From an uncultured Ruminococcus sp. (GTDB lineage Bacteria > Bacillota > Clostridia > Oscillospirales > Ruminococcaceae), in assembly GCA_947177205.1 (NCBI GenBank), contig CAMWTO010000008.1, positions 1-33,384 of the forward strand: DNA of 33,384 bases. The letters are read 5' to 3'. Position numbers and translations under genes: made by a program. How positions within the stretch are numbered: position 1 is the stretch's first letter; every line of letters begins with the position of its first letter. The notes below the pieces were generated by a model. That model was not told the DNA's origin, did no database searches, and worked only from the letters and a program-made list of their open reading frames with translations. Of the stretch, positions 25,775 through 33,384 are shown in pieces.

Positions 25775-26023
25775 ATGCAACAAGAAGAGTTTGAGAGTCT
25801 GACCGGGTTCAGACCGTCGCAGGGCATGTATCGTGTAATCGTAAACGAGTACATCAAATCAGCATTGGACGAGGCAGAGTTTTGTCGGCAATATAGCCTG
25901 AACATCGGTGGTATTGCCCAGAAAATTCAGCATATTACAGATATGGCGGAAATCGAACAGCAACAAGAAATTGCCAAACTCCAGGAACGGCTTGAACGAA
26001 ACATTAAAAATTCCCTTGCCTGA
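25775..26023 (+). CDS. Small phage protein (paralog of the 30019-30351 product)
   Basis: MQQEEFESLTGFRPSQGMYRVIVNEYIKSALDEAEFCRQYSLNIGGIAQKIQ; same pattern as EFEKLTGFYPPENLFAVIEEYYTQSELNVEDFCIQYRFNMNGIAEKIQ. Confidence 0.65.
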   Translation: MQQEEFESLTGFRPSQGMYRVIVNEYIKSALDEAEFCRQYSLNIGGIAQKIQHITDMAEIEQQQEIAKLQERLERNIKNSLA

Positions 26024-27740: not shown

Positions 27741-28731
27741 AAATGAAGTAGCTGTATCAGCTCCGGAAGTTGCCATTTTGTCGGACAGGCATAATATGGC
27801 AACCATGCTTGATAAAAGTATCAAGTCACACGCAATTATTGCACAGCAGTCATTATACGAAGTCTGCAAAGGTTTGAAAAAAATGCGAGATGACAAACTC
27901 TACATGGAGCTTGGATACAAAAATTTTGAGGATTATTGTGTAAATGAAGTTGGATTTAACAGAAATCAAGCGTATAAATACATTTCTGTTGCTGAAAATC
28001 TTTCAAATGATTTTGTATCCTCGAGGATACAAATTGGAGTGAACAAGCTTGCCTTACTTGCAAAACTGGATGAATCTGACCGGGAACAGCTCCAACAGGA
28101 AACAGATGTGGAAAGCGTAACTGTTAAGGAACTGCAAGAGAAAATCAGAGAACTGAAAGAGCAAAAGCAGAAGTTAAAGATTGCTCTCGGTGAGAGTGGT
28201 GAAAAACGCAGAAATCTGGTGAAAGAGAATGAGCAATTGACATTCGCAGTTTCGGCTAGTCATCAGGAAACAGAAAAAGTAAAAGCAAAATTTGAAGTAC
28301 ATATTGCAGAATTAGAAAAACAGCTCCGGGAGCTGGAAGATCGTCCTGTTGAAGTCATGCAATCCACAGCAGAGCTGGAAGAAATCGAGCGTTTGAAGTC
28401 TGAGTTAGAAGAAGTCAAAAACCGGGAACAGGAAGCGAAAGCAGAAGCCAAAAGAATGCAGAACACCAATGCGGAAACAACAAGCGAGATTGAAAGATTA
28501 CAGACAAGAATCAGCAAACTTGAAAATCAGCCTGTTTCGGGAGCTGTTCCCGATGCAAAGGAACTGTTCCGACCGTATTTCCAGGCTTGCACGCACAGCA
28601 TCGGCTTAATGATGGACTTTATCAGCAAACAGAAGAACAGCCCTGATTTTGCGTTCTTGACTTCCAAAGCATCCCAGATTGCAGAAGTGATTGAAAGTCA
28701 GCTCCAGGCTTTAAAAAATCAATCAGAATAA
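27727..28731 (+). CDS. HTH-plus-coiled-coil phage/plasmid-type protein, unknown
   Basis: YMELGYKNFEDYCVNEVGFNRNQAYKYISVAENLS, followed by a long coiled coil. Confidence 0.6.
   Translation: MSENKNEVAVSAPEVAILSDRHNMATMLDKSIKSHAIIAQQSLYEVCKGLKKMRDDKLYMELGYKNFEDYCVNEVGFNRNQAYKYISVAENLSNDFVSSRIQIGVNKLALLAKLDESDREQLQQETDVESVTVKELQEKIRELKEQKQKLKIALGESGEKRRNLVKENEQLTFAVSASHQETEKVKAKFEVHIAELEKQLRELEDRPVEVMQSTAELEEIERLKSELEEVKNREQEAKAEAKRMQNTNAETTSEIERLQTRISKLENQPVSGAVPDAKELFRPYFQACTHSIGLMMDFISKQKNSPDFAFLTSKASQIAEVIESQLQALKNQSE
28012..28033. repeat. Perfect 22-bp palindrome TTTGTATCCTCGAGGATACAAA inside a CDS
   Basis: Read directly from sequence. Confidence 0.85.
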
Positions 28732-28752
28732 GAACAATTTTTTTATTAAATA

Positions 28753-28788
28753 AAACATTGGTGGAATAACAGTATTCCACCAATGTTT
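28753..28788. terminator. 16-bp perfect stem hairpin AAACATTGGTGGAATA-acag-TATTCCACCAATGTTT
   Basis: Perfect inverted repeat between two + strand genes, with terminal T-run. Confidence 0.65.
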
Positions 28789-28817
28789 GAAAATCAAAAA
28801 AAAGTAGGTGAATTTCT

Positions 28818-29864
28818 ATGATGACATTTGCACAACTCGGACAACTGTCTTTGCAAATGCAGATGCTTTATGTGCAGGGAGTCAATTCCGGATCAAAGCC
28901 GGATGATCCTGTAGAATTGCCGGACAACGACCTGACATTTTCAGCTTCGGAATTTCCTGAAACACCCACAATAAAAATCTGTGCCGAAGCGTTCTTGAAT
29001 CTAAAAAAGTACACAGTAAGGCAAAGCACCTATCATAGATATATACGTTGTTTTAGAAATTCTGTGTTGCCATTCTTCGGAGATATGCAGTTAAATGCTG
29101 TCAGCGGAAAAGTGGTGCAAGAATTTGTCAATGCCATGCTCCGGCAAGGTATGAATCCGAAAGCGATTAAATATTGTGTGACGATGTTGAAAAGCGTTTT
29201 GTTGTGTGCTGAAGCTGATGGAATTATTACAATGCCGGTAATTCGCCCAAACTATCCGAAACAGTGCAAGCAGGAACGTCCGATTTTGTCCGATGAAGAT
29301 TTCAACAGGTTGAGTGAATATCTATTACAAGAAGGCAGCTCCATTTCAACGGCATTGCTGATTGTCATGCACACCGGAATCAGACTCGGCGAAGCGTGTG
29401 CCTTGCGGTGGTCTGATATGGATTTTAAGACCAACAGCATTTACATCCGGTACAGCGTCAAGCGTTACTACATACCGGAAGAAAGGCGAACCGTTTGCGA
29501 ACTCGGAGAACCAAAGACACTCAAGAGCAAACGGCGGATCTATATTTCAAAATGGCTTGTTGATGTTCTGAAACAGCGTCGGGAAACGGGTTTCATCTGC
29601 ACTGGAGTTGACAGATTTTGCAATCCCGAAACCATGCGAAACGCATTGAACAGGCGACTGAAGCAATTGAATATTCCGCACATCAGATTCCATGATTTGC
29701 GACACGGATTCGCTACCAGGGCTATCAATGGTGCAGGAGTCGATCCGAAGACGGTCGCAGAGATTTTGGGACACGAACACTGCGACATCACACTGGATAT
29801 TTACACTTCTTGCACGGCACAGATGCAAGTTGAAGCTATGGAAAAAATTCAAAAAATGAAATGA
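28818..29864 (+). CDS. int: Tyrosine recombinase integrase
   Basis: MHTGIRLGEACALRWSDMD; HIRFHDLRHGFATRAINGAGVDPKTVAEILGHEHCDITLDIYTSC. Confidence 0.92.
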   Translation: MMTFAQLGQLSLQMQMLYVQGVNSGSKPDDPVELPDNDLTFSASEFPETPTIKICAEAFLNLKKYTVRQSTYHRYIRCFRNSVLPFFGDMQLNAVSGKVVQEFVNAMLRQGMNPKAIKYCVTMLKSVLLCAEADGIITMPVIRPNYPKQCKQERPILSDEDFNRLSEYLLQEGSSISTALLIVMHTGIRLGEACALRWSDMDFKTNSIYIRYSVKRYYIPEERRTVCELGEPKTLKSKRRIYISKWLVDVLKQRRETGFICTGVDRFCNPETMRNALNRRLKQLNIPHIRFHDLRHGFATRAINGAGVDPKTVAEILGHEHCDITLDIYTSCTAQMQVEAMEKIQKMK

Positions 29865-29875
29865 GGAGTATTTAT

Positions 29876-30017
29876 AGTCCTATACAGTAGTGGCGAAGTG
29901 AATACGCCTGTAAGAATAAGGGTTGCCTGATTTTCAGGTGGAAACTGAAATACCAATCTTCTTACGAAGCCCCCACCTCTTAGCGAGTGTAACGAGCGTA
30001 GGTGGGGGAGAGTTCAC
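29876..30017 (+). mobile_element. 142-bp IS200/IS605-like mini-element (PATE/omegaRNA-like relic), no transposase
   Basis: Preceded by TTTAT. Left hairpin TACAG(tagtg)GCG...CGCCTGTA; right hairpin CCCCCACCT...AGGTGGGGG; right boundary TTCAC. Removing it rejoins TTTAT+G to an SD-spaced ATG. Confidence 0.6.
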
Positions 30018-30018
30018 G

Positions 30019-30351
30019 TTGAGAAGTGAGTTCGAGAAGCTGACAGGATTTTATCCGCCGGAAAATTTGTTTGCAGTGATTGAAGAATATTACACGCAAT
30101 CAGAATTGAATGTGGAAGATTTTTGCATACAATACAGATTCAATATGAATGGAATCGCCGAGAAGATTCAGAATGAGACAAACAGTCGATTATGTCGAGA
30201 GGCATTTCAAGCAGGAGCGATGTTGGGCGAAACTAAGCTTGAAAATGAAAAAGCTATTGTGAAAACTCTCGCTGTAATTCTGAAAAGAGCAGGCGAGATT
30301 AGTCCTGAAGATTTCAACGCCATTGTGAAACAGTGTGAGATACAAATATGA
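30019..30351 (+). CDS. Small phage protein, paralog of the 25775 gene, start codon interrupted by the mini-element
   Basis: TTG at 30019, (M)RSEFEKLTGFYPPENLFAVIEEYY. Track start 29923 lies inside the mini-element. Confidence 0.6.
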   Translation: MRSEFEKLTGFYPPENLFAVIEEYYTQSELNVEDFCIQYRFNMNGIAEKIQNETNSRLCREAFQAGAMLGETKLENEKAIVKTLAVILKRAGEISPEDFNAIVKQCEIQI

Positions 30352-30415
30352 AACATGATGTGGTATTTACGAGGTGAACAAGTACCATTTTAGAACGGTT
30401 AGTATATGTACCGTG

Positions 30416-30445
30416 AAAAAAGTTGATACTAGTATCAACTTTTTT
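30416..30445. repeat. Perfect 30-bp palindrome AAAAAAGTTGATACTAGTATCAACTTTTTT
   Basis: Read directly; arms shared with 19483-19510. Confidence 0.85.
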
Positions 30446-30849
30446 CTTTTCAGTTTAGTAGAAAAGAGATTCGGAAGATTTTCAGGTTGATGGAGTCAAC
30501 AAGAAAGTTTTGTAAAATTTTCTGTGAAAATCTTGTGAAAACTTGTCAGAGATGATTAAAGGATTTAGTTATCAATGTTGTAGACTTTGTCCAATAAATG
30601 AAGCGGAGCGGAATGCTCTGTTTTGCACTGCCGATCAGGTTGTGCAAAACAGGTATTGGGTAAACACTACCCGTTTTGTCATGAATCTATTATTTTTTTG
30701 CTTTAAAAAATTTTTTTTAAAAATTTTCTCAAAAATCATTTTCCCAAGCTGAAAAAATAATTGTGATGATTGTGTGAAAATATTTTATCCTCTTTAAGCA
30801 AGAAGCCTCCTACTTCTATAGATGGAAGATGAATTGCATTCGAAAATAC

Positions 30850-32062: not shown

Positions 32063-32131
32063 TAATATAACAGAAGCCAGCACGGCTTTTCCCCTCATTT
32101 GATGATGTTTCTAGGTTTCAGAAGCATTTCT

Positions 32132-32203
32132 GGCAGAGTAGAGCAATGGCAGCTCGCAAGGTTCATGCCCTTGAGGCAGGCGGTTCGATTCCGCCATCTG
32201 CAA
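32132..32203 (+). tRNA. tRNA with CAT anticodon (Met or lysidine-type Ile2), no encoded CCA
   Basis: Hand fold: acceptor GGCAGAG/ATCTGCA (mismatches at both ends), D-stem GAGC/GCTC with loop AATGGCA, anticodon stem CAAGG/CCTTG with loop TTCATGC, T-arm GGCGG-TTCGATT-CCGCC. Confidence 0.78.
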
Positions 32204-32301
32204 TTGAACATATAGTATAGGAACGCCTTTTCTGTAATACATAGTTATGTTATATGTAATACATGAAGGTGTTCTTTGCTTTTTTATTAGGAGATAAAAA
32301 T

Positions 32302-32646
32302 ATGAAACGGAATATTAGAACTATCAGACGTGGCGATATATATTTGATCGATTGCGGCAAGACTGTCGGATCAGAGCAAGGTGGTATCCGTCCAGCGGTT
32401 GTGATCCAGAATAACATGGGGAATCGTTATTCACCCACAACAATTGTGGCAATGATTACTTCGTCTACCAAGAAACATTTGCCGACACATGTCCAGATTG
32501 ACAGGGGACTTGAAATGCAATCCTGTGTTCTTTTGGAACAGATTCGGACAATTTCAATTGATAGATTGAAACAATACATAGTTACATTGGACAGATCTGA
32601 TATGATTCGGATTGACAATGCTCTGAGAGAAAGCCTTGCTATTTAG
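32302..32646 (+). CDS. MazF/PemK-like toxin
   Basis: IRRGDIYLIDCGKTVGSEQGGIRPAVVIQNNMGNRYSPTTIVAMITS. ATG 32302 has an AGGAG SD. No antitoxin ORF adjacent. Confidence 0.82.
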   Translation: MKRNIRTIRRGDIYLIDCGKTVGSEQGGIRPAVVIQNNMGNRYSPTTIVAMITSSTKKHLPTHVQIDRGLEMQSCVLLEQIRTISIDRLKQYIVTLDRSDMIRIDNALRESLAI

Positions 32647-33093: not shown

Positions 33094-33202
33094 CCGGGGG
33101 GCGGTCGAAATTCTGCGGCTGTCTTAGAGGAAAACGGTTACAGAAGACCTCTTTGTAGAAAAAACTCCCTAAATGAAAAAAATTTTTTTGGATGGTGATA
33201 AC

Positions 33203-33384
33203 ATGGGCAGACCAAAAGAACCAATCAATCTAATCATGACAAAAGGACAAAAACATCTGACAAAAGCCGAGATCAGGGAACGTCTTGCCTCTGAGGTCCA
33301 TCCTTGTACGGACGAAATCAGACCGCCATCCTATCTCACAGCAAAGCAAAAGAAACGATTCCAGGAGCTTGCAGAACAGCTCCT
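33203..33384 (+). CDS. terS: Terminase small subunit, N-terminal part (continues at window position 2)
   Basis: ATG at 33203 (MGRPKEPINLIMTKGQKHLTKAEIRERLASEVHPCTDEIRPPSYLTAKQKKRFQELAEQL) is open to the window end. The codon split CT|T joins in frame to ILGETDVETLAHY at positions 2-322. P27-type small terminase pattern. Confidence 0.85.
   Translation, partial: MGRPKEPINLIMTKGQKHLTKAEIRERLASEVHPCTDEIRPPSYLTAKQKKRFQELAEQL

Follow-up and report, generated by a model that had tools for sequence, protein, structure and literature searches.

The phage genome and its insert

The window, by which we mean the whole stretch of 33,384 nucleotides analysed here, carries phage genes for TerL, portal, capsid, tape measure and integrase, and looks like the circularly closed genome of a phage from a Ruminococcus-like gut bacterium. 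When positions 33173–33384 are joined to 1–322, a small terminase frame runs through the contig ends. A PemK/MazF-like toxin gene (32302–32646, PF02452) lies directly after a tRNA-Met gene (32131–32204), with no obvious antitoxin gene beside it.

The integrase gene (28818–29864, forward strand, Pfam PF00589) ends 11 bp before a 142-bp insert on the same strand (29876–30017), for which it is the candidate source of a read-through transcript. The insert is followed by a phage gene (30019–30351, forward strand) whose start codon it has split from the ribosome-binding site. A paralogue of this gene with a common N-terminal domain, EFExLTGFxP, is encoded at 25775–26023, and homologues are also found at host contigs C62 and C151.

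The insert is bounded by TTTAT/AGTCC on the left and TTCAC/GTTGAG on the right, where the phage DNA reads GTTGAGAAGTGAG. Its limits were defined from copies in its own and related genomes and from the effect of removing it: deletion in silico joins the flanks as TTTAT+GTTGAGAAGTGAG and yields AGGAGTATTTATGTTGAGAAGTGAGTTCGAG, comprising a ribosome-binding site and an ATG that opens the frame MLRSEFEKLTGFYPPENLFA. The restored start (AGGAG..ATG-TTG-AGA..) agrees with that of L057, an uninterrupted homologue from a different genome within the genus, which opens MLISEFENLTGIYPS at an ATG in the equivalent place; the two proteins begin M-L-R-S-E-F-E and M-L-I-S-E-F-E, respectively. The insertion is precise, with two flanks that fit each other, and this speaks against a chimera made during assembly. 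As in PATEs and MITE-like elements, it lies 3' of a target pentanucleotide without target duplication. A segment at 29920–30045 had been singled out in the preliminary description as the right end of a mini-element; that sequence is indeed present, but the true insert starts earlier and extends over 29876–30017.

The pentanucleotide TTTAT (29871–29875, forward strand) abuts the left side of the insert. It stands exactly 19 nt upstream of the left-end (LE) hairpin in 11 of 11 family copies in which that hairpin is unambiguous, and this fixed spacing identifies TTTAT as the family insertion motif and the predicted TAM. The empty site predicted for related phages is TTTATGTTGAG. Searches based on the integrase, on the gene and on the exact pattern gave no phage with such a site, and no viral contig with the exact empty target was found; the proposed targets are for that reason hypothetical.

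Cognate tnpB genes and the wider family

The first part of the insert (29877–29930, forward strand) corresponds, by comparison with the intact TnpB proteins P0001 and P0002, to the last 17 codons of tnpB (VLYSSGEVNTPVRIRVA) and a TGA stop. With the 3' ends of intact tnpB genes in sister species, such as the one at locus L013 in G029, the insert shares about 95% identity. In G029 and G016 its sequence forms the 3' end of intact 416-amino-acid tnpB genes, whose products match guided_TnpB (NF040570) with 196–198 bits against a cut-off of 100, so that the insert has its 3' end in common with a TnpB gene of the RNA-guided family. In the family TnpBs, the expected RuvC motifs retain D195 and D382, and E290 in at least 90% of the proteins. 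The C-terminal tail of the protein (..GEVDTPVRIRVA, residues ~398–416) is nearly invariant across genera in P0001, P0002 and nine relatives, probably because the same DNA also encodes RNA stems 0–2.

Copies of the family are present in seven of 38 genomes of the genus. The host genome contains nine full or partial copies. Apart from the insert, four near-complete TnpB-less copies are found in its assembly. A pattern scan of genome and viral contig collections returned 51 further loci, mostly from Ruminococcus and related gut Firmicutes and also from Peptostreptococcus, Oribacterium, Sharpea and Acetitomaculum. These fall into tnpB-bearing elements, TnpB-less elements of ~0.37–0.4 kb with a left-end hairpin, a sigma70-like promoter and an omegaRNA region, and rare shorter forms. 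The shorter forms comprise the 142-bp insert, L079, L002 and L111, the last having its left end fused into the scaffold. In L002 (host contig C94) the left boundary after TTTAT lies at a different internal point, just before the hairpin ACGGTCGATCGTACCGT. L009 (host contig C1) is a solo right end of ~62 bp after TTTAT that lacks the scaffold core. The 142-bp form is rare: sampling of 396 genomes of the family and 197 of the order, and a search of viral contigs, brought no further example.

Nine TnpB-less copies (L008, L014, L020, L068, L073, L083, L095, L099 and L112) share a conserved non-coding leader of approximate sequence CAGTTAGTCTTCTGTAAAAA..GAA.TCAGG. This leader lies upstream of the omegaRNA region, mostly behind a promoter-like TTGACA-TATAAT.

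An omegaRNA scaffold in the insert

The insert can be folded into a series of stems, all on the forward strand. Comparative alignment places the 3' arm of stem 0 (GUCC) at 29877–29880; its partner 5' arm, GGAC, is missing here. Stem 1 (29892–29908) pairs GGCG at 29892–29895 with CGCC at 29905–29908, and its loop contains the 5' strand of a pseudoknot, GUGAA (29898–29902), which is complementary to the terminal UUCAC (30013–30017), at once the right-end terminus and the pseudoknot 3' strand (compare the ISDra2 pseudoknot, PMC10097598). In stem 2 (29910–29965), GUAAGAA (29910–29916) is paired with UUCUUAC (29959–29965), supported by an A-U to C-G double change among others, and an inner pairing joins GGU (29921–29923) to ACC (29952–29954). 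Stem 3 is a CCUGA/UCAGG hairpin (29926–29938), and stem 4 is the right-end hairpin itself, CCCCCACCU/AGGUGGGGG with a loop of ~20 nt (29970–30008).

Across 38 aligned copies, 93% of cells in stems 0–4 and the pseudoknot are paired, versus 44–47% when partners are slid by 1–3 columns; 15 pairs have changed in both partners. In 500 shuffles, the pairing, the count of double changes and the covariation score of the real alignment were never reached. RNAalifold, run independently, returns identical nested stems. Conservation of these stems is borne out by covariation and by the controls. A held-out covariance model, built from 26 sequences that left out the insert, all sequences of its genome and L079, gives the insert 142.4 bits (E 4.7e-30 over 78 kb; E 1.3e-28 over the host genome), well outside what chance would produce. 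In the pseudoknot, the stem-1 loop (GUGAA or GUGGA) complements the five terminal bases, UUCAC. The pseudoknot is 95% paired and largely invariant with one-sided changes only, so that its pairs agree with the structure while covariation tests them weakly; in five relatives just GUG/CAC is left.

A search of Rfam, which the preliminary description had put forward as a check on its proposal, gave no relevant match to the insert at gathering or permissive thresholds. No Rfam family matches even the copies beside intact tnpB (L013 and L017), which indicates a gap in the library and not counter-evidence. The likeness to IS605 tnpB right ends and omegaRNAs that had been suggested is otherwise upheld, both by cognate tnpB genes with the same 3' end and by the comparative pairings including the pseudoknot, and the insert is almost certainly a TnpB omegaRNA scaffold.

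The ISDra2 scaffold measures 116 nt, and the RNA can do without its longer 5' part; omegaRNA trimmed of the 5' region stays active (PMC10097598). Stem 1 is flanked by ACAG, and the insert starts 8 nt before this sequence. As judged from sequence, the insert is the equivalent of the ISDra2 core and little else, and the sole loss is the 5' arm of stem 0.

RNA structure in relatives that lack TnpB

All four pairs of stem 0 are formed in each of 15 TnpB-less copies, in about nine combinations of arms (among them GGAC/GTCC, GGGC/GCCC, AGGC/GCCT, GAGC/GCTC, GGAT/ATCC and GTGT/ACAC), a count that is slightly favourable because the best-pairing arm was chosen within loops of 3–10 nt. Of the cells in the remaining stems, 93% are paired, and shuffles never reach this pairing or the number of doubly changed cells; in this small set, the number of pairs with a double change and the number of pair types are not significant against shuffles. 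These patterns suggest that the TnpB-less elements are, or were, used as RNA after loss of the nuclease, and part of their divergence could predate the loss of tnpB.

The left edge

The boundary TTTAT/AGTCC recurs identically in L079, a mini copy in Ruminococcus flavefaciens UBA1190, the left edge of which may be a misassembly. In full-length relatives AGTCC is mostly preceded by CTTAAC, CTTATC or CTTGAT. Had an ancestor carried TTTAT in its stem-0 loop, the transposase would have found an internal cleavage site beside stem 1; no source copy of this kind was seen. Deletion by microhomology (TCCTAT in the LE and in the scaffold) was rejected as the origin of the edge, since it would leave TTTATCCTAT and the observed sequence is TTTATAGTCCTAT.

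Supply of transposase and nuclease

Neither tnpB nor tnpA is encoded in the 33,384-nt phage contig, and the canonical LE hairpin is absent from the insert, which therefore lacks the genes (tnpA and/or tnpB) and the full pair of LE and right-end (RE) hairpins of an autonomous IS200/IS605 element. The host assembly contains one Y1 TnpA (L010, 139–552), associated with an element of a different terminus (GGATGTCAC).

Action in trans by a host TnpB had been envisaged in the preliminary description. No TnpB of the insert's family, and none with a matching right end, was found in the host assembly, which is 88.5% complete; the same query recovers members in nine genomes of the genus, and cognates occur in sister species. 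Given this completeness, and three host copies (L005–L007) that end at contig edges, a hidden full tnpB copy in the host is possible. Two other host TnpBs were rejected as the cognate. The right end of the one at C126 differs (GGATGTCAC) and scores merely 22.8 bits with the model, and that of the one at C5 also differs (GACGGTGGGTAGTTCAC) and gives no score at all.

Guide and proposed action

TnpB trims the 5' side of its RNA and uses flanking DNA as the guide (PMC8612924; PMC10278001). By analogy with ISDra2 (PMC8612924), the predicted 16-nt guide of the insert is GTTGAGAAGTGAGTTC (30018–30033, forward strand), which is phage DNA. The RNA 3' of the scaffold would read GUUGAGAAGUGAGUUCGAGAAG, and this matches the reconstructed empty site beside TTTAT, as had been noticed from the letters alone. 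The guide thus lies directly after the right end, with its target 3' of the TAM in the reconstructed empty site. No second GTTGAGAAGTGAGTTC target occurs in the host assembly at up to three mismatches.

We consider that the insert is probably what is left of an IS200/IS605 element: a non-autonomous guide-RNA unit, moved in trans by TnpA and dependent on a cognate TnpB. An element of the IS200/IS605 type would have been stripped of its canonical left end, and of tnpB except for 17 codons, while keeping one complete module, the minimal omegaRNA scaffold with stems 1–4 and the pseudoknot. Mobilised in trans by TnpA, it would have entered the phage directly behind the integrase gene, 3' of TTTAT, and read-through transcription of that gene may supply the omegaRNA. 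A cognate TnpB acting in trans would load the scaffold and trim its 5' side, and the following 16–20 nt of phage RNA would guide it to TTTAT-GTTGAGAAGTGAGTTC, that is, to the same phage without the insert. Cleavage of insert-free relatives would then result in homing. In the insert-bearing copy TTTAT and the target no longer adjoin, and this would protect it.

That a cognate TnpB could use the scaffold in trans is, in our estimate, slightly better than an even bet; that the omegaRNA is actually active in this host seems improbable. Homing or exclusion in trans is accordingly best described as plausible by analogy, and in this host as probably conditional on TnpB from elsewhere. It is unlikely that the 142-bp unit is itself a mobile, guide-RNA-only selfish element, one that borrows TnpA, uses the internal left end TTTAT/AGTCC and eliminates element-free phages with a borrowed TnpB. 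If it were, a guide-RNA-only element would be editing phage competition.

Alternative explanations

Several observations count against the guide-RNA unit: the host assembly offers no family TnpB, no promoter-like site was found on the forward strand upstream of the insert in a scan of 28700–30500, the 5' arm of stem 0 and the standard LE hairpin are missing, no known viral contig has a matching empty target, and the 142-bp form is seldom seen. The want of a cognate TnpB would equally suit an inert relic, in which a dead, 5'-truncated TnpB transposon has an intact 3' end through youth and has neither RNA function nor mobility. The reduction of tnpB to 17 codons and the solo right end in the same host (L009) fit such a remnant as well. 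The retained segment coincides, however, with the minimal omegaRNA core, the exactly equal left edge of L079 beside TTTAT would not be expected from random truncation, and TnpB-less relatives keep their stem pairings. We regard a relic as a serious but less probable account.

The remaining explanations carry far less weight. The insert parts AGGAG from the phage gene at 30019, and the right-end hairpin places GGGGGAG ~8 nt before a TTG at 30019, with an open frame running through the insert from the TTG at 29923; the insert might thus act as a 5' leader that alters translation. This is very unlikely to be its main role, since the sequence belongs to a mobile family found at unrelated sites and GGGGGAG is buried in a stable stem, and any change in translation may be a side effect. 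Restoration of the gene at the RNA level by a self-splicing IStron or other intron would suit the precise position in the gene start, but Rfam finds no intron and a group I intron would need more than 142 nt, which leaves this idea with almost no probability. Hardly more credible is a guide for a nuclease-dead, TldR-like repressor in place of cleavage. Phage-encoded TldRs with guide RNAs exist (PMC13418256); the family TnpBs nevertheless keep their catalytic-motif residues as given above, the guide position holds DNA of a phage gene and not a host promoter, and no such protein was found in the 33,384-nt contig or the host.

Comparison with known systems

The guide-RNA unit illustrates how far a TnpB transposon can shrink with an apparently intact guide-RNA module kept. 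The module sits in a phage, and its guide would point at rival phages free of the insert. Intact cognate TnpBs (P0001 and P0002) have been identified, which makes the ideas of action in trans and of phage exclusion testable. TnpB-less, promoter-bearing copies with compensatory changes suggest in addition that guide RNAs can persist under selection without a nuclease in cis.

The closest parallel is the ISDra2 omegaRNA (PMC8612924, PMC10097598), which likewise overlaps the tnpB 3' end and the right end, takes the first ~16 nt of flanking DNA as guide, pairs its stem-1 loop with the right-end terminus (ISDra2 nucleotides -5 to -3) and has stems 2–4. Both insert 3' of TTxAT, the motif being TTTAT here and TTGAT in ISDra2. 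Unlike ISDra2, the insert has no tnpB or tnpA, and its full-length family has an extra 5' hairpin (stem 0) that is broken in the insert. With PATEs and MITE-like IS200/IS605 derivatives it shares IS605-type ends without genes, presumably mobilised by TnpA in trans, whereas it keeps an entire guide-RNA scaffold inside and has an internal boundary where the canonical left-end hairpin would stand. For IscB, Altae-Tran and colleagues reportedly described stand-alone omegaRNA loci acting in trans in 2021. There too the guide RNA is encoded away from the nuclease, but the insert is of the TnpB class, is phage-borne and would have its guide set by the insertion site. Finally, when TnpB cuts plasmids that lack an element, those that carry it can go to fixation (PMC11870625); the predicted logic, cleavage of element-free copies of the same replicon, is alike, with the difference that TnpB is supplied in cis in the plasmid gene drive described there and would come in trans here.
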